From the NCBI RefSeq assembly GCF_002752635.1, contig NZ_AYTW01000013.1, positions 1 to 64,000 of the forward strand: a stretch of 64,000 nucleotides of DNA, given 5' to 3'. Position 1 is the stretch's first letter. Each line of letters starts with the position of its first letter. Of this stretch, positions 15,265 through 61,511 are shown in pieces. Under the pieces are notes generated by a model, which saw only the letters and a list, made by a program, of their open reading frames with translations, was not told the origin of the DNA and ran no database searches. This DNA comes from Mesotoga sp. Brook.08.105.5.1. Its GTDB lineage: Bacteria; Thermotogota; Thermotogae; Petrotogales; Kosmotogaceae. The position numbers and the translations under genes were made by a program.

Positions 15265-15918
15265 ATGATTGTTGATAACGTGAAAAGACTGAGAAGAGAA
15301 ATACCTGATTATGTGACCATCGTAGCCGCATCGAAAACGAGGACTGCTTCAGAGATTCTAGAGCTTCTGGATAGCGGTTTGAGGGATGTCGGTGAGAACT
15401 ACGTTCAGGAGGCTCAAGAGAAATTCGAGGTGATCGGCAGCAAAGCCAGATGGCACTGTATAGGTCACCTGCAGCGAAACAAAGTCAAGAAGGCCGTTGA
15501 GATATTTGACTTGATCCAGACTGTGGATTCCCTGAAACTGGCCGAGGAAATAGATAAGCGATGCGCTTTCATAAACAGGAGAATGCCGATAATGATAGAA
15601 GTTAACAGCGGCAGGGAGGAAAAAAAGGCCGGGGTCTTTCCCGAGAATGTCTTTGAACTTATTGAATCGATTTCATCCCTCGAGAATATTTCTGTAGTTG
15701 GTCTGATGACTATGGGGCCGTTAACCGATGATCAGGAAGAAATCCGACCTTACTTAAGACTAACTAGAGAGTTGTTTGAAGAGATCTCCATGCATAAGAT
15801 CGAGAGAGTTCAGATGCGTTACCTTTCTATGGGGATGTCCGGCTCATACAAGGTTGCGATTGAGGAAGGATCCAATATGGTGAGACTTGGCACGATAATC
15901 TTCGGCGAAAGACAGTAG
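15265..15918 (+). CDS. YggS-family pyridoxal phosphate homeostasis protein
   Basis: The 217-residue product is a single-domain, alanine-racemase-like TIM barrel of the YggS/PLPBP family, which buffers intracellular PLP and has no known enzymatic reaction. It shows VAASKTRTASEI with the PLP lysine, the family hallmark VGENYVQEAQEKF, WHCIGHLQRNKVKKAV, MIEVNSGREEKKAGV, LMTMGP, LSMGMSGSYKVAIEEGSNMVRLGTIIFG. The ATG at 15265 follows GGGAGG. Many bacteria carry it near cell division genes; here it stands alone. Confidence 0.93.
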   Translation: MIVDNVKRLRREIPDYVTIVAASKTRTASEILELLDSGLRDVGENYVQEAQEKFEVIGSKARWHCIGHLQRNKVKKAVEIFDLIQTVDSLKLAEEIDKRCAFINRRMPIMIEVNSGREEKKAGVFPENVFELIESISSLENISVVGLMTMGPLTDDQEEIRPYLRLTRELFEEISMHKIERVQMRYLSMGMSGSYKVAIEEGSNMVRLGTIIFGERQ

Positions 15919-15938
15919 GACGAGCGCTCCACAAGGGT

Positions 15939-15958
15939 ACCGAGTAAGCATACTCGGT
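15939..15958. terminator. Perfect hairpin downstream of yggS
   Basis: ACCGAGTA / TACTCGGT forms an 8-base perfect stem with loop AGCA, 20 bases past the yggS stop and between it and the convergent tex gene. No true T tract follows on either strand. It may be a weak or factor-assisted bidirectional terminator, or an RNA 3'-end stabiliser. Confidence 0.45.
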
Positions 15959-16032
15959 CGATCTTCGAACAGTTGCTTAGGGTCAAGAGTCCCTATATCG
16001 ATTGAGTTGTGTCCAACGATTTCACGAATTGC

Positions 16033-18192
16033 CTAACTCCGAGATTCGTTGCTGCCGGAAAGCAACTCCAATCCAATCCTCATTCTCTTGGTGTCAACTT
16101 CAAGCACTCTAACTTTCACGATCTGGCCGACGCTCAAGACTTCAAGTGGATCCCTAACTCTTCTTCCCATCTTGCTTTTGTGAATCAGACCGTCCTGTTT
16201 GACTCCAATGTCTACGAAGGCGCCGAAATCTACGACGTTGCGGACGGTTCCTTCAAGTTCCATGCCTTTAGACAGGTCTTCCATCGAAAGCACGTCGGTC
16301 CTCAGAATCGGTTTCTCCAGCTCCCCTCTTGGGTCTAAACCGGGCTTTTTCAGCATCCCTATTACTTCTCTCACAGTGATCTGGTTAAAACTGTTTTCCC
16401 TTGCCAGAGCTTCGGGATCGATTTGATCAAGCAATTCAGTAATCTCATCTTTTCTGTCGAAGAGCTCTTCCGGGAGCAACTCTACGCTTTCAAGAATGAA
16501 TCTGGCGATCTCGTAGCTCTCCGGATGGACAGAGGTTCCGTCAAGAGCTTCGGATCCATTGATTATTCTGCAGAATCCCGCCGCCTGCTCGAAGGCCTTT
16601 GGACCTAGACCGGAGACTTTCAGCAGTTCCTTTCTGTTCCTGAACGCTCCGTTTTCAGCCCTGTGTTTTACAATGTTCAGTGCGGCTCTTGAATTCAATC
16701 CGGATATGTATTTGAGTAAATGCTCCGATGCAGTGTTTAGATTGACGCCTACTAGATTCACGACAGACTCGACCTCTCTGTCGAGGGTCCTTTTCAGTTC
16801 TGACTGATTTACATCGTGCTGATACATACCTACTCCAATAGCTTCAGGCGAAATCTTCACATATTCGGCGAGGGGATCTTGAACTCTTCGGGCGATCGAT
16901 ATAGCCCCCCTTGTTGTTACGTCCTCATCTGGGAATTCCTCAATGGCGACTTTTGAAGCCGAATATACAGATGCGCCCGACTCGGTGACTATCATATACT
17001 TGACAGGAAGATTGTGTTCTCTAATCAGCCTGCTCACGAAGAGTTCGGTTTCCCTTGACCCCGTGCCATTACCTATGGATATAAGCTCGACATTCAACGT
17101 GTTTATCGCCTGAACAACTTTCATCGATGAACCGACGTAGTCATTCTTTGGAGGGGTGGGAAAGATCACGTCATGATAAAGAAGGGAACCGTCCTTTCCG
17201 ATGACTGCAAGCTTGCACCCGGTCCTATAACCGGGGTCAACACCCATGACCACCTTCTCGCCGAGAGGAGGCTGAAGAAACAGGTCTCTCAGATTTCTGG
17301 CAAATACATGGATTGCCCTGCTTTCTGCTTCTTCTCTTATCAGATTTCTCACTTCTCTTTCTATCGAGGGCATGAGAAGTCTGGAGAAGGAATCGACCGA
17401 AGCCTCAATCAACTCTTCATAGTAGGCGAGATAGTCTCTCCATCCCAAGAGATCTCTCAAAGTTGGAAGGATATCGTACGGGAGCTCCAGTTTCAGCGAA
17501 ATAATCTCCTCGCGCTCTCCTCTGAAAAGAGCGAGAATTTGATGGGCTACCAGTCTTGATATTGGCTGAGAGAAGTCGTAGTAATCTCTGTAGACTTCAC
17601 GCTCATCCTCCTTTTCGGTTCGGGAGCTCTTGATTATCCCCTTCTCCTTAAGTAGACTTCTTAGCTTTTCTCTTACTGCCACTTCCTGTGAGAATTCTTC
17701 GGCAAGTATATCTCTGGCTCCTTCGAGTGCATCTTCGAGCTTGAGGATTTCCTGTTCTGCATTTATGAAAGTGAAGACAAAAACCTCATCTTTGATTCTT
17801 GAAGATTTAAGGAAATCCGCTAGAGGCTGGAGCCCTTTCTCCCTTGCCTTGTCGGCTCTGGTCTTCTTCTTTGATTTGAAGGGAAGATAGAGGTCCTCGA
17901 CTAACTGAAGATTCTTTGCTCCTTTGATGCTTGCTTCCAGCTCATCAGTAAGCTTGCCTTTTTCCTCGATTATCCTAAGAACCTCATCTTTTCTAGAACT
18001 CAGTTTTTTCGCATACTCGAGAGCATCGGAAATCTCTCTTAACTGTATCTCATTTAACTCTCCAGTCTTTTCCTTTCTGTATCTAGCGATAAATGGAATC
18101 GTCTTTCCTTCTTCGAGCAGTTCGACTGCGTTTTCTACTTTCCATCTTGGTAAAGCCAGCGAGTTGGCGATGTCCAATATTATCTCATTCAT
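16033..18192 (-). CDS. tex: Tex-family S1 RNA-binding transcription accessory protein
   Basis: The 719-residue product matches the full Tex architecture: N-terminal helix-turn-helix region (KVENAVELLEEGKTIPFIARYRKEKTG), a YqgF-like RNase H fold (VMGVDPGYRTGCKLAVIG), helix-hairpin-helix motifs (YISGLNSRAALNIVKHRAENG and VSGLGPKAFEQAAGFCRI), and a C-terminal S1 domain (GMELEGTVRNVVDFGAFVDIGVKQDGLIHKS). Tex binds nucleic acids and affects transcription and stress fitness. I chose ATG 18192 because GGAGGT lies 8 bases upstream; a longer frame to 18270 lies inside the upstream gene. The start overlaps the pyruvate-kinase-like gene by eight bases. Confidence 0.95.
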   Translation of the reverse strand: MNEIILDIANSLALPRWKVENAVELLEEGKTIPFIARYRKEKTGELNEIQLREISDALEYAKKLSSRKDEVLRIIEEKGKLTDELEASIKGAKNLQLVEDLYLPFKSKKKTRADKAREKGLQPLADFLKSSRIKDEVFVFTFINAEQEILKLEDALEGARDILAEEFSQEVAVREKLRSLLKEKGIIKSSRTEKEDEREVYRDYYDFSQPISRLVAHQILALFRGEREEIISLKLELPYDILPTLRDLLGWRDYLAYYEELIEASVDSFSRLLMPSIEREVRNLIREEAESRAIHVFARNLRDLFLQPPLGEKVVMGVDPGYRTGCKLAVIGKDGSLLYHDVIFPTPPKNDYVGSSMKVVQAINTLNVELISIGNGTGSRETELFVSRLIREHNLPVKYMIVTESGASVYSASKVAIEEFPDEDVTTRGAISIARRVQDPLAEYVKISPEAIGVGMYQHDVNQSELKRTLDREVESVVNLVGVNLNTASEHLLKYISGLNSRAALNIVKHRAENGAFRNRKELLKVSGLGPKAFEQAAGFCRIINGSEALDGTSVHPESYEIARFILESVELLPEELFDRKDEITELLDQIDPEALARENSFNQITVREVIGMLKKPGLDPRGELEKPILRTDVLSMEDLSKGMELEGTVRNVVDFGAFVDIGVKQDGLIHKSKMGRRVRDPLEVLSVGQIVKVRVLEVDTKRMRIGLELLSGSNESRS

Positions 18193-55557: not shown

Positions 55558-55916
55558 GAGTCTCTATCACCATCCTTTTTCACTACCAATACAGACTCTC
55601 CATGAGACTATCATATCGTATTCTCGCTTGTCAGAAGGGTAACACCAAGGAAATGCTGATGATTTGTCCTGCCATTGAGCGGAGGAATCCCTTTAACGGA
55701 TACCAGCATCGGTGTTTCGCTGCACAATGAAGAACGAGAAAGACTAAGAGTGAATAGGTCCTCAAAGTGATTTACTGGCCATAACAGATGCTCAATGTGG
55801 GAAAAGATTAGCAGAGCAAAGAATTTCTGAAGAAGATGTCGATAATTATCAGCTGACAAACCGGTCGAGCTAGCTCACTCTATAGTTAGATAACTGCGGA
55901 ATTTGCATGAATATGT
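55558..55916. other. Intergenic stretch, nothing recognised
   Basis: No reading frame with ribosome binding site or family similarity is visible on either strand. An 82-residue minus-strand frame at 55611-55859 has no recognisable motif and no good start. The stretch contains the upstream promoter region of queD on the minus strand and runs up to the promoter of microgene 1. Confidence 0.4.
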
Positions 55917-55945
55917 TTGACATTCATCTAACTATCTGTCATAAT
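55917..55945 (+). promoter_or_regulatory. Promoter of microgene 1
   Basis: TTGACA (55917-55922) and CATAAT (55940-55945) are 17 bases apart. Five bases later the transcript leader TGTAAGAGATGTATCGAACC (55951-55970) matches 18 of 20 bases of the leader of microgene 2, at the same distance from its -10 box. Confidence 0.85.
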
Positions 55946-55985
55946 AGTACTGTAAGAGATGTATCGAACCGGGGAGGGATGACAG

Positions 55986-56084
55986 GTGTCAGAAAATCAG
56001 ATGAAATCGATGAAGGAAGTTACAGAGCAGATAGAGAAAGTGAGAGTTGAGATTCTCAAGACGAGATCATTCATAACTTTCTGA
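55986..56084 (+). CDS. Microgene 1: 32-residue protein, paralogue of microgene 2
   Basis: GTG 55986 follows GGGAGG (55972-55977, spacing 8). The product has 32 residues with the charged helical centre MKEVTEQIEKVRVEILK and ends SFITF. It aligns without gaps to microgene 2 on the opposite strand at 56941-57039: identical at K10, I16, K18, R20, K25, F29 and F32, with D/E11, I/V12 and D/E17 conserved. Promoter, leader and terminator are present, so the unit is complete. No family is recognised. It could also act mainly as a small RNA. Not a type I toxin by appearance, as it is not hydrophobic. Confidence 0.65.
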   Translation: MSENQMKSMKEVTEQIEKVRVEILKTRSFITF

Positions 56085-56105
56085 GAAAGTGCTGGAAAAT
56101 CACGA

Positions 56106-56129
56106 GAGAGCTTTCGGGCTCTTTTTTTT
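56106..56129 (+). terminator. Terminator of microgene 1
   Basis: AGAGC / GCTCT stem with loop tttcgg, followed by eight T residues, 21 bases past the microgene stop. Confidence 0.9.
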
Positions 56130-56222
56130 GTTGAAACTCCTGGCGTTTGGCGCATGTATGTGAGACCAACCGAGAAAAATCATTGTCGGGAGTTTTGCTT
56201 TGAGAGTGCGAGAAATGATCGT

Positions 56223-56550
56223 CGTTGACCGTTACGGGTCAACCGTCCGAGAACACCGCGAACCAGTCCACCGAAAAGAACAATCGAGAAAGAGCACTTT
56301 CGAGACGTTCGCTGCGCTCACGAGAAGACGAGAAATTCAAAGCCAGTCACCTTCGGTGGCCAGTCTTTGCTTCGCAAAGGCCGGTTCCGCTTCGCGGGCT
56401 AAGAACCGCTGTGCGCTTAAGATCAAGGACCCGCTGATCGCTTGTAAAAGTTCAGTTGCAAGTTCCAAGATGCAAGTTGCCAGAAAAAGCAAGAGACCGG
56501 GGTTGGGGGTAGCGGCTTCGTGGTAGGAAAGAGCACGTTGAACCAAAATA
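56223..56550. repeat. Irregular hairpin-rich stretch next to the array
   Basis: Several separate palindromes are seen: GTTGACC...GGTCAAC (56224-56243), CACC-TTC-GGTG (56348-56358), CTTTGC-TTC-GCAAAG (56365-56379), and CCGCTTCGCGG-like (56386-56397). The TTC loops are the same as in the ordered array downstream, so this may be a degenerate part of the same element. Open frames drawn through it are accidental. Confidence 0.5.
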
Positions 56551-56556
56551 AGCTTC

Positions 56557-56726
56557 CCTGCGAAGCAGGCATTGCTATCACTGATGCTCTTCAGTGCATT
56601 GCGTCCCACCGAAGGTGGCATCACTTCCGCCGATGCTTTTCGGCGCATCACTTCCCCGAACGTTTCTCCGGGCATCACTACCACGCGCCAGCGAGCCTCA
56701 CTTCCTGATGAAGTCGGCATCATTTC
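56557..56726 (+). repeat. Ordered hairpin array with constant 9-base linker
   Basis: Units alternate a variable palindrome with a CATCACTTC-like linker: CCTGC-GAA-GCAGG (56557-56569), linker cattgctat, CACTGA...TCAGTG (56579-56596), cattgcgtc, CCACC-GAA-GGTGG (56606-56618), catcacttc, CGCCGA...TCGGCG (56628-56645), catcacttc, CCCG...CGGG (56655-56672), catcactac, a weaker stem, ctcacttc, CTGA...TCGG (56705-56717), catcatttc. The stems differ in sequence but stay paired, so structure seems selected. It is not CRISPR, since repeats are not identical and there are no spacers. Confidence 0.75.
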
Positions 56727-56847
56727 TGCTTGTCCTCTCTTTTCTCGGAGAACGGAGGATCGTTGACGGCCAACGTGGTTTTCATCAGCGACCAAGGTCT
56801 CTTTGCTTTTGATAGTAGGAGGTCCTTCCCCTACTTTGAAAGGAATG

Positions 56848-56871
56848 AAAAAAGGGCCTCTGCTGAGACCC
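56848..56871 (-). terminator. Terminator of microgene 2
   Basis: On the minus strand, GGGTCTC / GAGGCCC forms an imperfect stem (GGG-CTC with GAG-CCC) and is followed by six T residues. It lies about 70 bases past the stop of microgene 2. Confidence 0.75.
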
Positions 56872-56940
56872 GAAGTCATCTTTCTTTCCGTGGGGGAAAA
56901 GGGGGGTTGCTTGTATGTCGCGATTCTACTGGTAAATTCT

Positions 56941-57039
56941 TCAGAACGCCAGGAAATTACCGTGTTTTGCAGAAGCCGATCTTGCCTTGTCGATTTCTTT
57001 CTGAATGTCTTTTCGTATTCTCTTTGGTTCTCTCTTCAT
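56941..57039 (-). CDS. Microgene 2: 32-residue basic protein, paralogue of microgene 1
   Basis: ATG 57039 has AAGGAGGAG upstream (57045-57053, spacing about 5). The product has exactly 32 residues. It begins with a very basic start MKREPKRIRKDIQKEIDKAR, has helix character throughout and ends FLAF. Gap-free alignment to microgene 1 gives eight identities including M1, K10, I16, K18, R20, K25, F29, F32. The gene has its own promoter (TTGACA at 57109-57114, TAAGAT at 57086-57091, 17-base spacing) and terminator. It converges on the hairpin array from the other side. Confidence 0.65.
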   Translation of the reverse strand: MKREPKRIRKDIQKEIDKARSASAKHGNFLAF

Positions 57040-57060
57040 ATCGACTCCTCCTTTTCGTTG

Positions 57061-57114
57061 CGTTCGATTCATCTCTTACATTTTGATCTTAGCATTGGGT
57101 TTGATAATTGTCAA
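57061..57114 (-). promoter_or_regulatory. Promoter and conserved leader of microgene 2
   Basis: On the minus strand, TTGACA (57109-57114) and TAAGAT (57086-57091) are 17 bases apart, followed five bases later by the leader TGTAAGAGATGAATCGAACG (57061-57080). This leader matches that of microgene 1 at 18 of 20 positions and begins near the expected transcription start. Confidence 0.88.
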
Positions 57115-57332
57115 ACCTTAAATGTTAACGAACAATGAATTTCTAACTATATGTCGTTTAAGGACCTTATATTCTCTGATCGTTGAATGGTAGGGATCAT
57201 AAGCATGAATAGATTCGTGTTGGAGCGAGTTCTGCAAAGCCTAAGAGCTATGTCTAGTCAGAACAGAGAGATCAGTTCTAAATTACTCTAACTGTATCTG
57301 TGCTATAATTCAAGACAAGTCGAACTTGAGAG

Positions 57333-58409
57333 GTGTATTCCTTGAAAATCATTCCGGGATACGTTGAACTTGTAGAGATTTTAATGGCATGTGGGTTTGC
57401 TGATAGAAAGAGTTACTTCGATGCACTCTCGCAAGACCTGGGGTTTGATTTCGAACCAGGAAGAGAACTTGTCGAATTTCTTGATAGAGTTAGAAGTAAT
57501 GATAACTGGTCGATAAGAGTGGCTGTTGAGGTCTTCTCCGAAATAAAGGACAGTGTCATATTCTTCTGTGATTTTCCAAAGGAGCCCGGAGGCGAGCTTC
57601 TTCTTGAAGAGGCCATAGAGAGCCTGGGAAAAAGTTTTGAAGAAAAGGCAAGGTGTGTGGTTGACAGCATCTTGTTGAACAATCTAAATCTCTCTCAAGA
57701 GGACGTGAGGAAGACGCTAGACGGTGACTTGAGCATCGTTTCGGAGGCCGTTGACAAGGCAGAAGACCTTTCTGAGAACACGACTTGGTTCATCACTCAA
57801 CTGATCAAGTTTCCCAAACAGTCTAAGGAGATTCTAATCTTTGCTCTGAGAGAACTTAAGAAGCACTATGAAGAATCAGGGCTCAGAAAGAAGAATCGTG
57901 ACAAGATTGCTGAAAGGCTAAGACTATTCAGAGCCGAAGAGTACGAGGAAGTTGCGGAGGATTTCCTGAAATTCTACGGTATAAGGCCCAGGGAAGATTT
58001 GCCTCTTCACCTTTTATTTCAGAACACTCTCAAGTATTCGGGCCTCAAGTTCGCCAGCGCCTGCGATATCCAACTCATAGTTTTCAGTGAGCACCTGAAA
58101 CAGATTGAAGAGATCATGAATCCTGTGGTAACCGACAACACTCTCAGATTATTTCTTAGAAATCTTTCCGATCAGACAAAGATGCAGATTCTTAAGGCGA
58201 TATCCGACGAGCCGAAATACGTAGATGAGCTTGCGAGAATTGTGGGTTTGTCGAAGTCGACCGTTTCCTACCACCTTTCTACATTGGGTGAGCTGGCTCT
58301 TGTCACGAGTCGTAAGGATCACAGAAGGGTGTACTTTTCGCTTAATAAAGAGCGTCTCGAGAAGATACTTAAGAGATTGGAAACGCTGTACGAAGAGGGT
58401 GAAGAGTAA
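57333..58409 (+). CDS. ArsR-type HTH regulator with large N-terminal domain, paralogue A
   Basis: The 358-residue product has a long N-terminal part (about 1-265) rich in charged helices with no recognised family. The C-terminal winged helix is LSDQTKMQILKAISDEPKYVDELARIVGLSKSTVSYHLSTLGELALVTSRKDHRRVYFSLN. It is paralogous to the next gene in length and layout, for example WSIRVAVEVFSEIK here against WSTRMYITFMNELG there. TTG 57333 follows GAGGTG. No metal-binding Cys pattern is visible in the HTH, so the signal is probably sensed by the N-terminal domain. Confidence 0.8.
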   Translation: MYSLKIIPGYVELVEILMACGFADRKSYFDALSQDLGFDFEPGRELVEFLDRVRSNDNWSIRVAVEVFSEIKDSVIFFCDFPKEPGGELLLEEAIESLGKSFEEKARCVVDSILLNNLNLSQEDVRKTLDGDLSIVSEAVDKAEDLSENTTWFITQLIKFPKQSKEILIFALRELKKHYEESGLRKKNRDKIAERLRLFRAEEYEEVAEDFLKFYGIRPREDLPLHLLFQNTLKYSGLKFASACDIQLIVFSEHLKQIEEIMNPVVTDNTLRLFLRNLSDQTKMQILKAISDEPKYVDELARIVGLSKSTVSYHLSTLGELALVTSRKDHRRVYFSLNKERLEKILKRLETLYEEGEE

Positions 58410-59476
58410 TGGAATTGATTACAGGATACTTCGAGATATACGATCTGACGATGGCCATTCAATTCTCGCTCAACACTGGTCCGGTTGAGAAAGTGCTTAA
58501 GACACTCGGAGTTGATTATGAGCCATCAACGCAGCTGATGGAATTCAGAGAGGATTTGTTGAGAGACACAGAATGGTCAACAAGGATGTATATTACCTTT
58601 ATGAATGAATTAGGTGTGATGGCTCCCATACTCTTTCCAATTAGGCAGAAGCTGCAGGACGGAATGTTCGTAACAATAGAGGAAAGCCTAAACATAGCTG
58701 AGGAAGGCGTAAAGCTGATAAGAGATCGATTCATTCGTGTCTTTGCCGAAAGAAGACTGAAGATTTCACACGATGAACTTAATCTTATGATCCATGAGAA
58801 CCCTCAGAAGGTCTCGCAGGCTATAGAGGCAATCGGCGGAATAAGTGCTGACACAGTATGGTTCATAAACCAGCTGCTTTTCTTCCCGAAGACCGCAATG
58901 GATTTCCTCTCTTCCAATACGCTGAAAATCCTGAATTACTATGAGCGCAGTGGATTGAGGGAGCTTAACATGCGGCTTGTAAAAGGGTACGTGGAGAACA
59001 GTTCTCCTCAGAGGATTAGAGATGCATTCTCGAACTATCTAGACTATTATGGCATAACGCTGGACGAGTCCAAACCCTTGTATATAACACTTCAGAACTC
59101 TGTGCCCCACACAAACTCCGGTGTAATGACCTATCCGACGTTCCACCTCCTTATAATGGGTCTTGAAGAAGTTACTGAAGATTTCTCGGGCAGAATACCT
59201 AAAGAGGTAAGGTTGAGGAGTCTTCTGAAAGTCCTGTCGGATGAAACCCGTTTCAAGATCTTGAAGAAGTTGAATAACGAGCCCGCCCTGCAGAGAGATT
59301 TAGTTGAGTTCACTGGACTTGCAAAGTCGACTATCTCCTATCACATTGGTCTTCTTTTCAAGTCATCGTTGATAGATGTGGACCCATTTAACAGCGTCAT
59401 CTACGTAAGAAAAGAGACCATAAGTAGGGCAGCTGCAGATATTAGAAATCTGTTGAACATAAGGGAGAAAAGATGA
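58409..59476 (+). CDS. ArsR-type HTH regulator with large N-terminal domain, paralogue B
   Basis: The 355-residue product has the same layout as its neighbour: unrecognised N-terminal part of about 265 residues, then LLKVLSDETRFKILKKLNNEPALQRDLVEFTGLAKSTISYHIGLLFKSSLIDVD. The ATG overlaps the stop of paralogue A (TAATG), so the two are co-translated and probably act as a heterodimer or as sensors for related signals. The third gene of the operon is a HAD phosphatase. Confidence 0.8.
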   Translation: MELITGYFEIYDLTMAIQFSLNTGPVEKVLKTLGVDYEPSTQLMEFREDLLRDTEWSTRMYITFMNELGVMAPILFPIRQKLQDGMFVTIEESLNIAEEGVKLIRDRFIRVFAERRLKISHDELNLMIHENPQKVSQAIEAIGGISADTVWFINQLLFFPKTAMDFLSSNTLKILNYYERSGLRELNMRLVKGYVENSSPQRIRDAFSNYLDYYGITLDESKPLYITLQNSVPHTNSGVMTYPTFHLLIMGLEEVTEDFSGRIPKEVRLRSLLKVLSDETRFKILKKLNNEPALQRDLVEFTGLAKSTISYHIGLLFKSSLIDVDPFNSVIYVRKETISRAAADIRNLLNIREKR

Positions 59477-60123
59477 TTAGAGCGGTAGTATTCGATATGG
59501 ACGGGGTCATTATCGATTCGGAAAAAGTCTATAGAAAGGCATGTACGGAACTGGTAACCGAGCTGGGCGGTAAGATAAGTGTTGAGTTGTTTGAAAAGCA
59601 GATGGGTCTGAAGATGACAGAGACCCAGAAGGTCGTTGTAGAAACGGCGGGACTAGATATGAAACCTGAGGACTTTGGCAGAAGATACATGGAAAGGTAC
59701 ATGAAGCTTGCAAGGGAGACTCTAGAACCAAATCCCGGGTTGATCGACCTTCTCGCTTACCTGTCGGAAAAGGTTAAGCTGGCCATAGCTTCATCTACAG
59801 AGAGGGCCGCCATTGAGGAACTTATGAGAAAGATTAACGTACTCGATTACTTCGAGGTAGTTGTGGGTGGTGATGAAGTTCATGAATCTAAACCCTCACC
59901 TATTATCTATCTCAGAGCTGCGGAGCTTCTTGGAGTCAAGCCTGAAGAGTGTGTTGTTGTTGAAGACTCGCCAAATGGAATAAGAAGTGGCGTTAGAGCT
60001 GGAATGGAAGTGCTGGGTGTTAGAAATGAAGAGAATGCCCATCTAGATTTGTCTTTCTCGAAAGATGTTTTCGAAGATCTTTACGGAGTAAAAGAGTATC
60101 TCGAAAAACTTCTTGAGAGTTAG
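59473..60123 (+). CDS. HAD-superfamily phosphatase/phosphomutase (beta-PGM-like)
   Basis: The 216-residue product shows motif I VVFDMDGVIIDSE (DxDGVxxDSE), motif II LAIASSTERAAIEELM, a lysine in HESKPSPIIY and motif III/IV VVEDSPNGIRSGVRAGM. The cap domain fits beta-phosphoglucomutase or sugar-phosphate phosphatases. The ATG overlaps the paralogue B stop by four bases. It converges on the crp-like gene with a four-base overlap. Confidence 0.9.
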   Translation: MIRAVVFDMDGVIIDSEKVYRKACTELVTELGGKISVELFEKQMGLKMTETQKVVVETAGLDMKPEDFGRRYMERYMKLARETLEPNPGLIDLLAYLSEKVKLAIASSTERAAIEELMRKINVLDYFEVVVGGDEVHESKPSPIIYLRAAELLGVKPEECVVVEDSPNGIRSGVRAGMEVLGVRNEENAHLDLSFSKDVFEDLYGVKEYLEKLLES

Positions 60124-60773
60124 TCGAAAAGCAAGTTTTCCAGGCGCTTGAGATTCCTTATCTCCACTGTGTTTCTATCAGGCATGGAAATGATCCCGTC
60201 TCTTTCAAGTTCCGAGAAGTTTCTGGACACCACCTCCCTCGTTGATCCTATTAGACTGGCCAGAGTCTTCTTTGTGCAGGGAAGCTTCAAAGTTTGGGAG
60301 TCCTTTTCAAGAGATAATTCAAGCAGATAGCTGGCGATCTTTTTCTTCACAGTGGATAGTGAAAGAATCTCGATTATGCTTGACAGATTCAAGATCTTCT
60401 CGGAAATGCTTCTGAGATAAGTGAGAAGAAAGCACTGATTCTTGAAAGCATACAGAAGCACTTTCTTGGGGATGTTGAGAATCTCCGAATCCACCTCTGA
60501 AACCACATAAGAAGCATACCTTCTTCCTGCAAAAACCAACGCCTCGCCGAACATCTGCCCCTTTTCCAGACGGTTCATAATCTGTTCCTGGCCTGAAGGC
60601 AAAAACTTCGATATTCGGAGTTTGCCTTCGAGAACAAGACTTAGCGAATCGCACCGATCATCGGGAGTGTACAAGACCTGGTTGCTTGAAGAGTGCATCC
60701 TTCGAGAGCCAACAAGTATTTTTTCTATTTCGCCGGAGGTCAAATCGCTGAAAAGGTCTATGCTTTGCAGCAT
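60120..60773 (-). CDS. Crp/Fnr-family transcriptional regulator
   Basis: The 217-residue product has a cyclic-nucleotide-binding fold (about 10-115; LSLVLEGKLRISKFLPSGQEQIMNRLEKGQMFGEALVFAGRRYASYV), a dimerisation helix (about 115-145) and a C-terminal winged helix (KKIASYLLELS, CTKKTLASLIGSTREVVSRNFSELERDGII). The CAP phosphate-binding RS pair is not present and no iron-sulfur Cys set is seen, so the ligand is unknown. It starts one base after the GNAT gene stop, so the two are co-transcribed. Confidence 0.92.
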   Translation of the reverse strand: MLQSIDLFSDLTSGEIEKILVGSRRMHSSSNQVLYTPDDRCDSLSLVLEGKLRISKFLPSGQEQIMNRLEKGQMFGEALVFAGRRYASYVVSEVDSEILNIPKKVLLYAFKNQCFLLTYLRSISEKILNLSSIIEILSLSTVKKKIASYLLELSLEKDSQTLKLPCTKKTLASLIGSTREVVSRNFSELERDGIISMPDRNTVEIRNLKRLENLLFD

Positions 60774-61511
60774 CTACTTATCAACCCTGTACCAGTACTC
60801 GTATTCCATCTTAAACCCGACTCTTGAATAGAGTCTTATCGCATTTATGTTAGGTTTGTCTACTTGAAGATAGGCGATTCTAGCGCCCCTTTTCTTTCCG
60901 AGTTCCAGCAGTTTCTCGGTTATCTGTATTCCATAACCCTTTCGCCTTTCAGTTTCGAGGACAGCTATTCCGAATAATCCTATATGGTCTCCTTCAATGA
61001 CTGCCAAACCACAACCAACATCGTTTCCCTCCTTCTTGAGTAGCACGAAGAAGCTCTTGGATATTACCATCGAAAGAAGTTTCTTTGCCCAAGACTTATT
61101 ACCCCGTGCTCTCTTGTTAAGTGAGAAAAAGATGTCGAGCCATCTTTCTTCCGGTGTTGGGAAGATATCGAGATCGGAGATATCTAACCTTTTGCTGTCC
61201 AAGGTCTTAGTCATGACGAGAGCCCTGTCTATCTCTTGAAAGCCCATCTCTTCAAGGGTTTTGTCAAGGAAGACCGGCTTAGACTCCTGTGTCAATTTGA
61301 ACATTGGAGGCAGATCCCTGGAACGGTAAAATGATCTGACCTCTTCGATCTTATGAGAAAGAGATTCGTGAGAATCATATAGTGGATATACTGAGTTTGA
61401 CCTGTTTGTGTATCCGCCGGCGTATCTCATTATCCAACCATCCCTCAACCTGCTGTAGGCGGCGGGCCAGGAGTTCAACGTAATCTCTTCAAGCTTCCTG
61501 ATCCTTGACAT
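60774..61511 (-). CDS. GNAT-family N-acetyltransferase
   Basis: The 245-residue product matches a GNAT subfamily that begins with the signature LNSWPAAYSRLRDGWIMRYAGGYTNRSNSVYPL. The catalytic GNAT core is in the C-terminal half (VGCGLAVIEGDHIGLFGIAVLETERRKGYGIQITEKLLELGKKRGARIAYLQVDKPNINAIRLYSRVGFK). The acetyl-CoA loop is RRKGYG. Substrate unknown. The ATG at 61511 follows TTGGAGGTA. It leads the two-gene operon with the Crp/Fnr regulator. Confidence 0.87.
   Translation of the reverse strand: MSRIRKLEEITLNSWPAAYSRLRDGWIMRYAGGYTNRSNSVYPLYDSHESLSHKIEEVRSFYRSRDLPPMFKLTQESKPVFLDKTLEEMGFQEIDRALVMTKTLDSKRLDISDLDIFPTPEERWLDIFFSLNKRARGNKSWAKKLLSMVISKSFFVLLKKEGNDVGCGLAVIEGDHIGLFGIAVLETERRKGYGIQITEKLLELGKKRGARIAYLQVDKPNINAIRLYSRVGFKMEYEYWYRVDK

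Follow-up and report, generated by a model that had tools for sequence, protein, structure and literature searches.

The window, a stretch of 64,000 nucleotides from Mesotoga sp. Brook.08.105.5.1, contains two convergent microgenes of 32 codons each. Microgene A (55986..56084, + strand) has a GTG start and the SD sequence GGGGAGGG and encodes the product MSENQMKSMKEVTEQIEKVRVEILKTRSFITF; microgene B (56941..57039, - strand) has an ATG start, the SD sequence AAGGAGGAG and the product MKREPKRIRKDIQKEIDKARSASAKHGNFLAF. The two products align without gaps, sharing eight identities and F-x-x-F at the end of both. The promoter of A (55917..55945, + strand; kept in 6 genomes) consists of TTGACA (55917-55922), a spacer of 17 nt and CATAAT (55940-55945), and that of B (57086..57114, - strand; aligned in 13 genomes) of TTGACA, again 17 nt, and TAAGAT. 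Each gene ends in an intrinsic terminator composed of a GC hairpin and a T-run, located at 56106..56129 (+ strand) for A, with similar hairpins in related genomes, and at 56848..56871 (- strand) for B (GGGTCTC...GAGGCCC, then the T-run). Between promoter and start codon, A and B match at 18 of 20 bases of a "leader", TGTAAGAGATG[T/A]ATCGAAC. The 32-codon genes with their eight identities and shared ends, the promoters, the match of the leaders and the terminators had been reported in an initial annotation and were reproduced in our sequence check; as a whole the observation is confirmed and exceeds chance, and its interpretation as an undescribed system of small proteins or small RNAs is partly supported. 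Its coordinates were too narrow, clipping the operators and leaving out the regulators R1 and R2 described below. An independent repeat search returned the ends of A and B as one 55-nt inverted repeat with 71% complementarity.

In DNA searches of 17 family genomes, direct matches revealed B in 5 other genomes of the genus and A in 3, and matches to the promoter led to the A/B pair in G006 and G010. When read, each of the loci proved to encode similar products of 32-33 aa. The convergent pair is present in 6 genomes, and A is decayed in 2 more (G011 and G012), where the palindrome of A is still there; because these two species retain B, R1 and R2, the presence of two microproteins is not essential. 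The decayed copies are pseudogenes at L024 8172-8460 and L025 about 15830-16113 (- strand) with a recognisable operator palindrome. In three other genera of the Kosmotogaceae (G001-G005), a single microgene of 32-35 codons lies at the place of B, divergent from R1. The same genes, promoter and order are found in related genomes.

Codon comparisons show strong purifying selection on B, for example between G007 and G014 (pN 0.055, pS 0.864), and third positions account for 27 of 52 variable sites in B. For A, the bias between pS and pN has the same direction and is less sharp, so that the substitution pattern bears out a coding constraint on both genes. A profile built exclusively from the other genera ranked A first (E 6e-4) and B second (E 0.018) among 1841 window ORFs; as the window itself did not enter the profile, this is independent support for common descent. 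The initial proposal of an undescribed small-protein system with paralogous genes is supported. With a profile of all 19 microproteins, 19 matches at E < 1e-9 were obtained in 103 Thermotogota genomes, all at this locus; no further sound member appeared in these genomes, the next best matches (about 1e-3) being mostly pieces of long ORFs. A weak match to B in G009 (E 2.7e-4) was taken as chance. The tree of such short proteins was not resolved, and A leans weakly to the copies of the other genera. The A region (window 55905-56130 vs L018) is 92% identical between G000 and G007, and B there only 83%; G011 and G012 have a B closer to that of G007 and have lost A. As far as sequence comparison can tell, the identity pattern and the losses suggest that A has been exchanged between species.

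The length and the C-terminal end of the microproteins are kept across genera, and conservation spans the helix, not the end alone. This helix was predicted for residues 6-30 with moderate confidence. Neither an export signal nor a transmembrane segment was found in the microproteins, the maximal mean hydrophobicity over 19 residues being ≤0.14. In Pfam, A had no match and B only one to DUF1639 (E 0.083) below the curated cut-off. Neither the microproteins nor the RNA tail of B fall into any family of Pfam, Rfam or the literature searched, and the literature on small RNAs of Kosmotoga and Mesotoga and on ArsR-linked microproteins contained nothing on this locus.

The -35 boxes of both microgenes are overlaid by a palindrome of the form GTTnGA-N6-TCnAAC: GTTTGACATTCATCTAAC at A (55915..55932, + strand; a perfect copy) and GTTTGACAATTATCAAAC at B (57099..57116, - strand; kept in 13 genomes, with one letter off in G002). 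In the 3-Mb genome the perfect pattern occurs at 2 places, both of them microgene promoters. As this count is itself close to chance expectation (a control pattern also matches), the significance lies in the coincidence of both perfect palindromes with the two -35 boxes and not in the number of matches. The GTTTGACAnnnnTCnAAC form (GTTTGACA...) is present at this locus in all 13 genomes, again with a single mismatch in G002; the matches that these genomes have at other places are variable and resemble chance. A matrix built without the sites of this genome scored 27.5 bits for B and 22.3 bits for A, against 11.8 for the next site in the 64 kb and a maximum of 14.5 bits over 20 random control sequences. 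The operator is private to the locus.

A second operator-like site follows at a fixed distance of 37 bp from the first palindrome and corresponds to the "leader": GTAAGAGATGTATCGAAC at A (55952..55969, + strand; layout GTnnGA-N6-TCnAAC, weak alone with 8.4 bits) and, by sequence comparison, GTAAGAGATGAATCGAAC at B (57062..57079, - strand). The initial annotation had taken this stretch for an RNA leader, possibly of an RNA family. Its invariant letters, GTAAGA-N6-TCGAAC, are two half-sites at operator spacing, arranged as in the -35 palindrome, and the B leader of the other genera lacks this stretch; we therefore regard it as a DNA site. The similarity between the promoters and "leaders" of A and B is best read, from the sequences compared, as that of DNA operators. 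Further operator-like sites occur 30-31 bp upstream in several genomes. The possibility of a repeated cassette was also discarded: the genome-wide search for the leader gave just two exact copies, those of A and B, and there is one locus per genome.

A comparable site, ATTCAAGACAAGTCGAAC (57308-57325), directly follows the -10 box TATAAT of the R1 promoter (57304..57325, + strand). It is weaker here than in the other genera, whose R1 promoters have a clearer palindrome after the -10 box (e.g. ATTTGATATATATCGAAC, 10-18 bits). With sites both at the microgene promoters and at the R1 promoter, the locus is laid out like one whose repressor controls the microgenes as well as the operon that encodes it. 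The element that A and B have in common is an operator, and it is shared with the divergent regulator operon that had been missed.

R1 (57333..58409, + strand) is a protein of 358 aa with an ArsR-type winged helix at its C terminus and an N-terminal domain without a known match. R2 (58409..59476, + strand), a paralogue of 355 aa with about 25% identity to R1, is the better conserved regulator, with 47-57% identity between genera compared with 28-29% for R1. Both exceed the gathering score of 22 for the Pfam family HTH_5 (R1 51.1, R2 26.5), whereas the NCBIfam cut-off of 55 for HTH_metalloreg is exceeded by R1 (62.8) and not by R2 (34.4). For R2, the AlphaFold2 model (mean pLDDT 87) adds a match of the helix-turn-helix part to ArsR structures, so both proteins possess DNA-binding domains of the ArsR type by HTH_5 score and R2 also by fold. 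The N-terminal domain of R1 and R2, about 255 residues long and mostly helical, is undescribed; the 255 N-terminal residues of R2 had no Pfam family and no solved structure among the matches listed. No TPR family scored above cut-off in R1 or R2, and the structure matches listed were ArsR-like HTH folds. The window R2 is devoid of cysteine and consequently of a classical cysteine metal site. Outside the family, relatives of R1 and R2 mostly match the HTH part only. A partial relative in G055 (E 3e-35) aligns over residues 179-347. In G001, the aligned stretch of R1 (L068 6962-7936) contains a TGA, by which R1 of this draft genome may be shortened or frameshifted.

The tandem pair R1-R2 is present in 14 family genomes and lies directly upstream of B, in divergent orientation. 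This arrangement with B is found in 13 of the 13 genomes, from 4 genera, whose assembly extends upstream of R1; the G009 contig stops 16 bases short of R1. B, R1 and R2 persist among genomes in which the left flank (QueD, EcfT) and even the HAD gene vary. In G006 and G010 the left flank differs and the microgenes, R1 and R2 are still together, and in G003-G005 no HAD gene, the one that follows in the operon, was detected adjacent to R2, which leaves B, R1 and R2 as the common core. Apart from these, no neighbouring gene keeps its linkage in all genera, and no microprotein without the regulators was found in the genomes searched. The linkage is hence strict, and from proximity and co-occurrence we infer that R1 and R2 are the putative binders of the palindrome.

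Between the stop codon and the terminator of B, the 3' UTR contains a C-rich element, CAACCCCCCTTTTCCCCCACGGA (56887..56909, - strand), with one copy per genome. Its pattern was found in 10 of the 103 Thermotogota genomes, once in each and always in B, and slight variants are present in G006, G010 and G001. Between genera, the identity of this RNA tail (0.70) lies between those of the operator (0.86) and the coding part of B (0.45). Rfam gave no match in the window at the gathering score and nothing convincing at a relaxed threshold. The whole transcript of B folds no better than shuffled sequences (z 0.76). Duplexes of the element with the ribosome-binding sites of A, R2, B and R1 were calculated at -17.6, -13.9, -12.4 and -5.8 kcal/mol, respectively, values that do not stand out from the background of 34 ORF starts in the window (mean -12.1 kcal/mol, with 4 unrelated starts below -20). 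Since the local duplex energies fall within this background, we name no target, and with neither special duplexes nor excess folding it is conservation that argues for an RNA function. The B transcript may act as a C-rich base-pairing RNA, and as its coding function is under selection, it has one of the two sides of a dual-function RNA. A small-RNA role had been suggested initially; such a function is probable in the 3' UTR of B, the leader not being its place.

A and B are indeed separated by a hairpin array, at about 56200-56800, which is REP-like (e.g. 56617-56727 with GGCATCACTTCC repeats). As a component of the cassette it was rejected: REP sequences are spread genome-wide in Mesotoga prima, where 1,814 are listed (PMC12306157), and G008 and G014 have no such array between the genes, the two terminators nearly abutting there. 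The array is a REP-like feature of the lineage and lies outside the cassette.

The locus looks like a small self-contained control circuit of one bacterial family, and the explanation that we tentatively favour is a closed, autoregulated module of repressor and microprotein. R1 and/or R2 would bind the observed palindrome GTTnGA-N6-TCnAAC; binding over the -35 box and the flanking sites would shut the microgene promoters, and binding just past the -10 box of R1 would repress their own operon. Once the N-terminal domain of R1/R2 senses a signal, the microgenes would fire. Their products of 32-35 aa, short, basic and predicted to be helical, with a C-terminal end that is fixed and hydrophobic, would stay cytoplasmic and most likely feed back on R1/R2 as partners, two microproteins probably facing two regulators in this genus. 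The C-rich stretch of the B transcript would most likely pair in trans with G-rich ribosome-binding sites, which would make it a dual-function RNA. It is rather unlikely that all of this applies at once, so that tandem ArsR-type regulators, equipped with an undescribed sensor domain, would read a private operator and have the microprotein as their ligand inside the cell, while its transcript of about 230 nt would also contain a C-rich RNA acting in trans, and a duplication in one genus would have given two microproteins to match the two regulators.

Many stress-induced small proteins of bacteria act as induced output on other targets. The microproteins could likewise act on an enzyme, the ribosome or the membrane, switched on by R1 and R2 in response to a small molecule or stress without direct contact between them. 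The large N-terminal domain of the regulators suits another ligand, and control through an operator requires no feedback; yet the co-occurrence is strict and private, no other neighbourhood gene is linked across all genera, and the searches gave no case of the microprotein apart from the regulators. We consider this alternative possible, if doubtful. Less probable still is a B that serves chiefly as a regulatory RNA with a secondary or vestigial ORF: no part of the transcript is indeed better conserved between genera than the C-rich element, but clear purifying selection acts on the ORF at the protein level, and the ORF keeps its length and C-terminal end from genus to genus.

A secreted peptide signal sensed by R1 and R2, similar to SHP/Rgg or leaderless systems and with the hydrophobic C-terminal residues as the signal, would account for a tiny gene divergent from its own regulator and for the conserved C-terminal end, and leaderless signals do exist (PMC10518010). 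It is very unlikely given microproteins that lack a signal or transmembrane segment, conservation that covers the helix and not only the end, regulators without a TPR domain, and the fact that no transporter or protease was seen linked across genera. Small ORFs, short transcripts and the convergent layout also recall type I toxin-antitoxin pairs, in which small toxic proteins are under RNA control. With charged peptides instead of hydrophobic, membrane-spanning ones, and a single microgene in the other genera, this interpretation is extremely unlikely. Finally, the ORFs are very short and near a REP-like array, as chance ORFs of a repeat-rich intergenic region might be; this reading is already refuted by conservation in 4 genera, codon bias, the profile test and the private operator, and its remaining probability is negligible.

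The proposed repressor-microprotein module somewhat resembles peptide-regulator pairs and dual-function RNAs; the RRNPP-defining features that we tested are absent, and the RNA function is putative. R1 and R2 share the C-terminal HTH_5 winged helix with regulators of the ArsR/SmtB and SdpR type, but they comprise about 355 residues instead of about 100, with an undescribed N-terminal domain, and the metal-binding cysteines of the metalloregulators are absent from the window R2. SdpR is an autorepressor. As in the SHP/Rgg and leaderless peptide/RopB pairs (RRNPP) of Firmicutes, a tiny gene lies divergent from a DNA-binding regulator of its own. Unlike in these, secretion features and a TPR receptor are lacking here, and instead there are a C-terminal ArsR-type winged helix, two tandem regulators and a charged helical product. 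RRNPP propeptides have a secretion segment or, if leaderless, yield a signal of about 8 aa, whereas the microproteins have 32-35 aa and no hydrophobic segment. Among dual-function RNAs, SR1 of Bacillus subtilis encodes the 39-aa protein SR1P (PMC7430163) and is comparable in being a short transcript under repressor control that codes for a small protein and may also base-pair; no sequence relation was seen, and here the candidate pairing element is in the 3' UTR. The B. subtilis sRNA FsrA has a C-rich single strand proposed to act on ribosome-binding sites (PMC7430163), and the C-rich stretch of B would be suited to the same pairing; repressor control is established for FsrA and predicted here. 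FsrA does not encode a protein and has small basic proteins as separate partners (PMC7430163), whereas the B transcript is coding and without an Rfam match.

This one small locus adds a family of microproteins that had escaped annotation, a regulator domain not described before and a conserved element that resembles an sRNA. Should the microprotein be the ligand of the regulator, the two would form a peptide-regulator pair that belongs neither to the RRNPP class nor to Firmicutes. Such genes are missed where RNA isolation selects against RNAs < 200 nt, as in a transcriptome study of K. olearia (PMC5674127).

Genes for a CRP/FNR-like regulator (60120-60773) and a GNAT acetyltransferase (N-acetylglutamate synthase-like, 60774-61511), both on the - strand, adjoin the operon and are its neighbours in most genomes of the genus. 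In 3 genomes of other genera, the DNA just past the microgene terminator encodes, in the same direction, a protein of about 145 aa that has a hydrophobic segment near its N terminus (L065 8181-8618, L066 6270-6716 and L064 7860-8303), and control of this gene by read-through from the microgene is conceivable.
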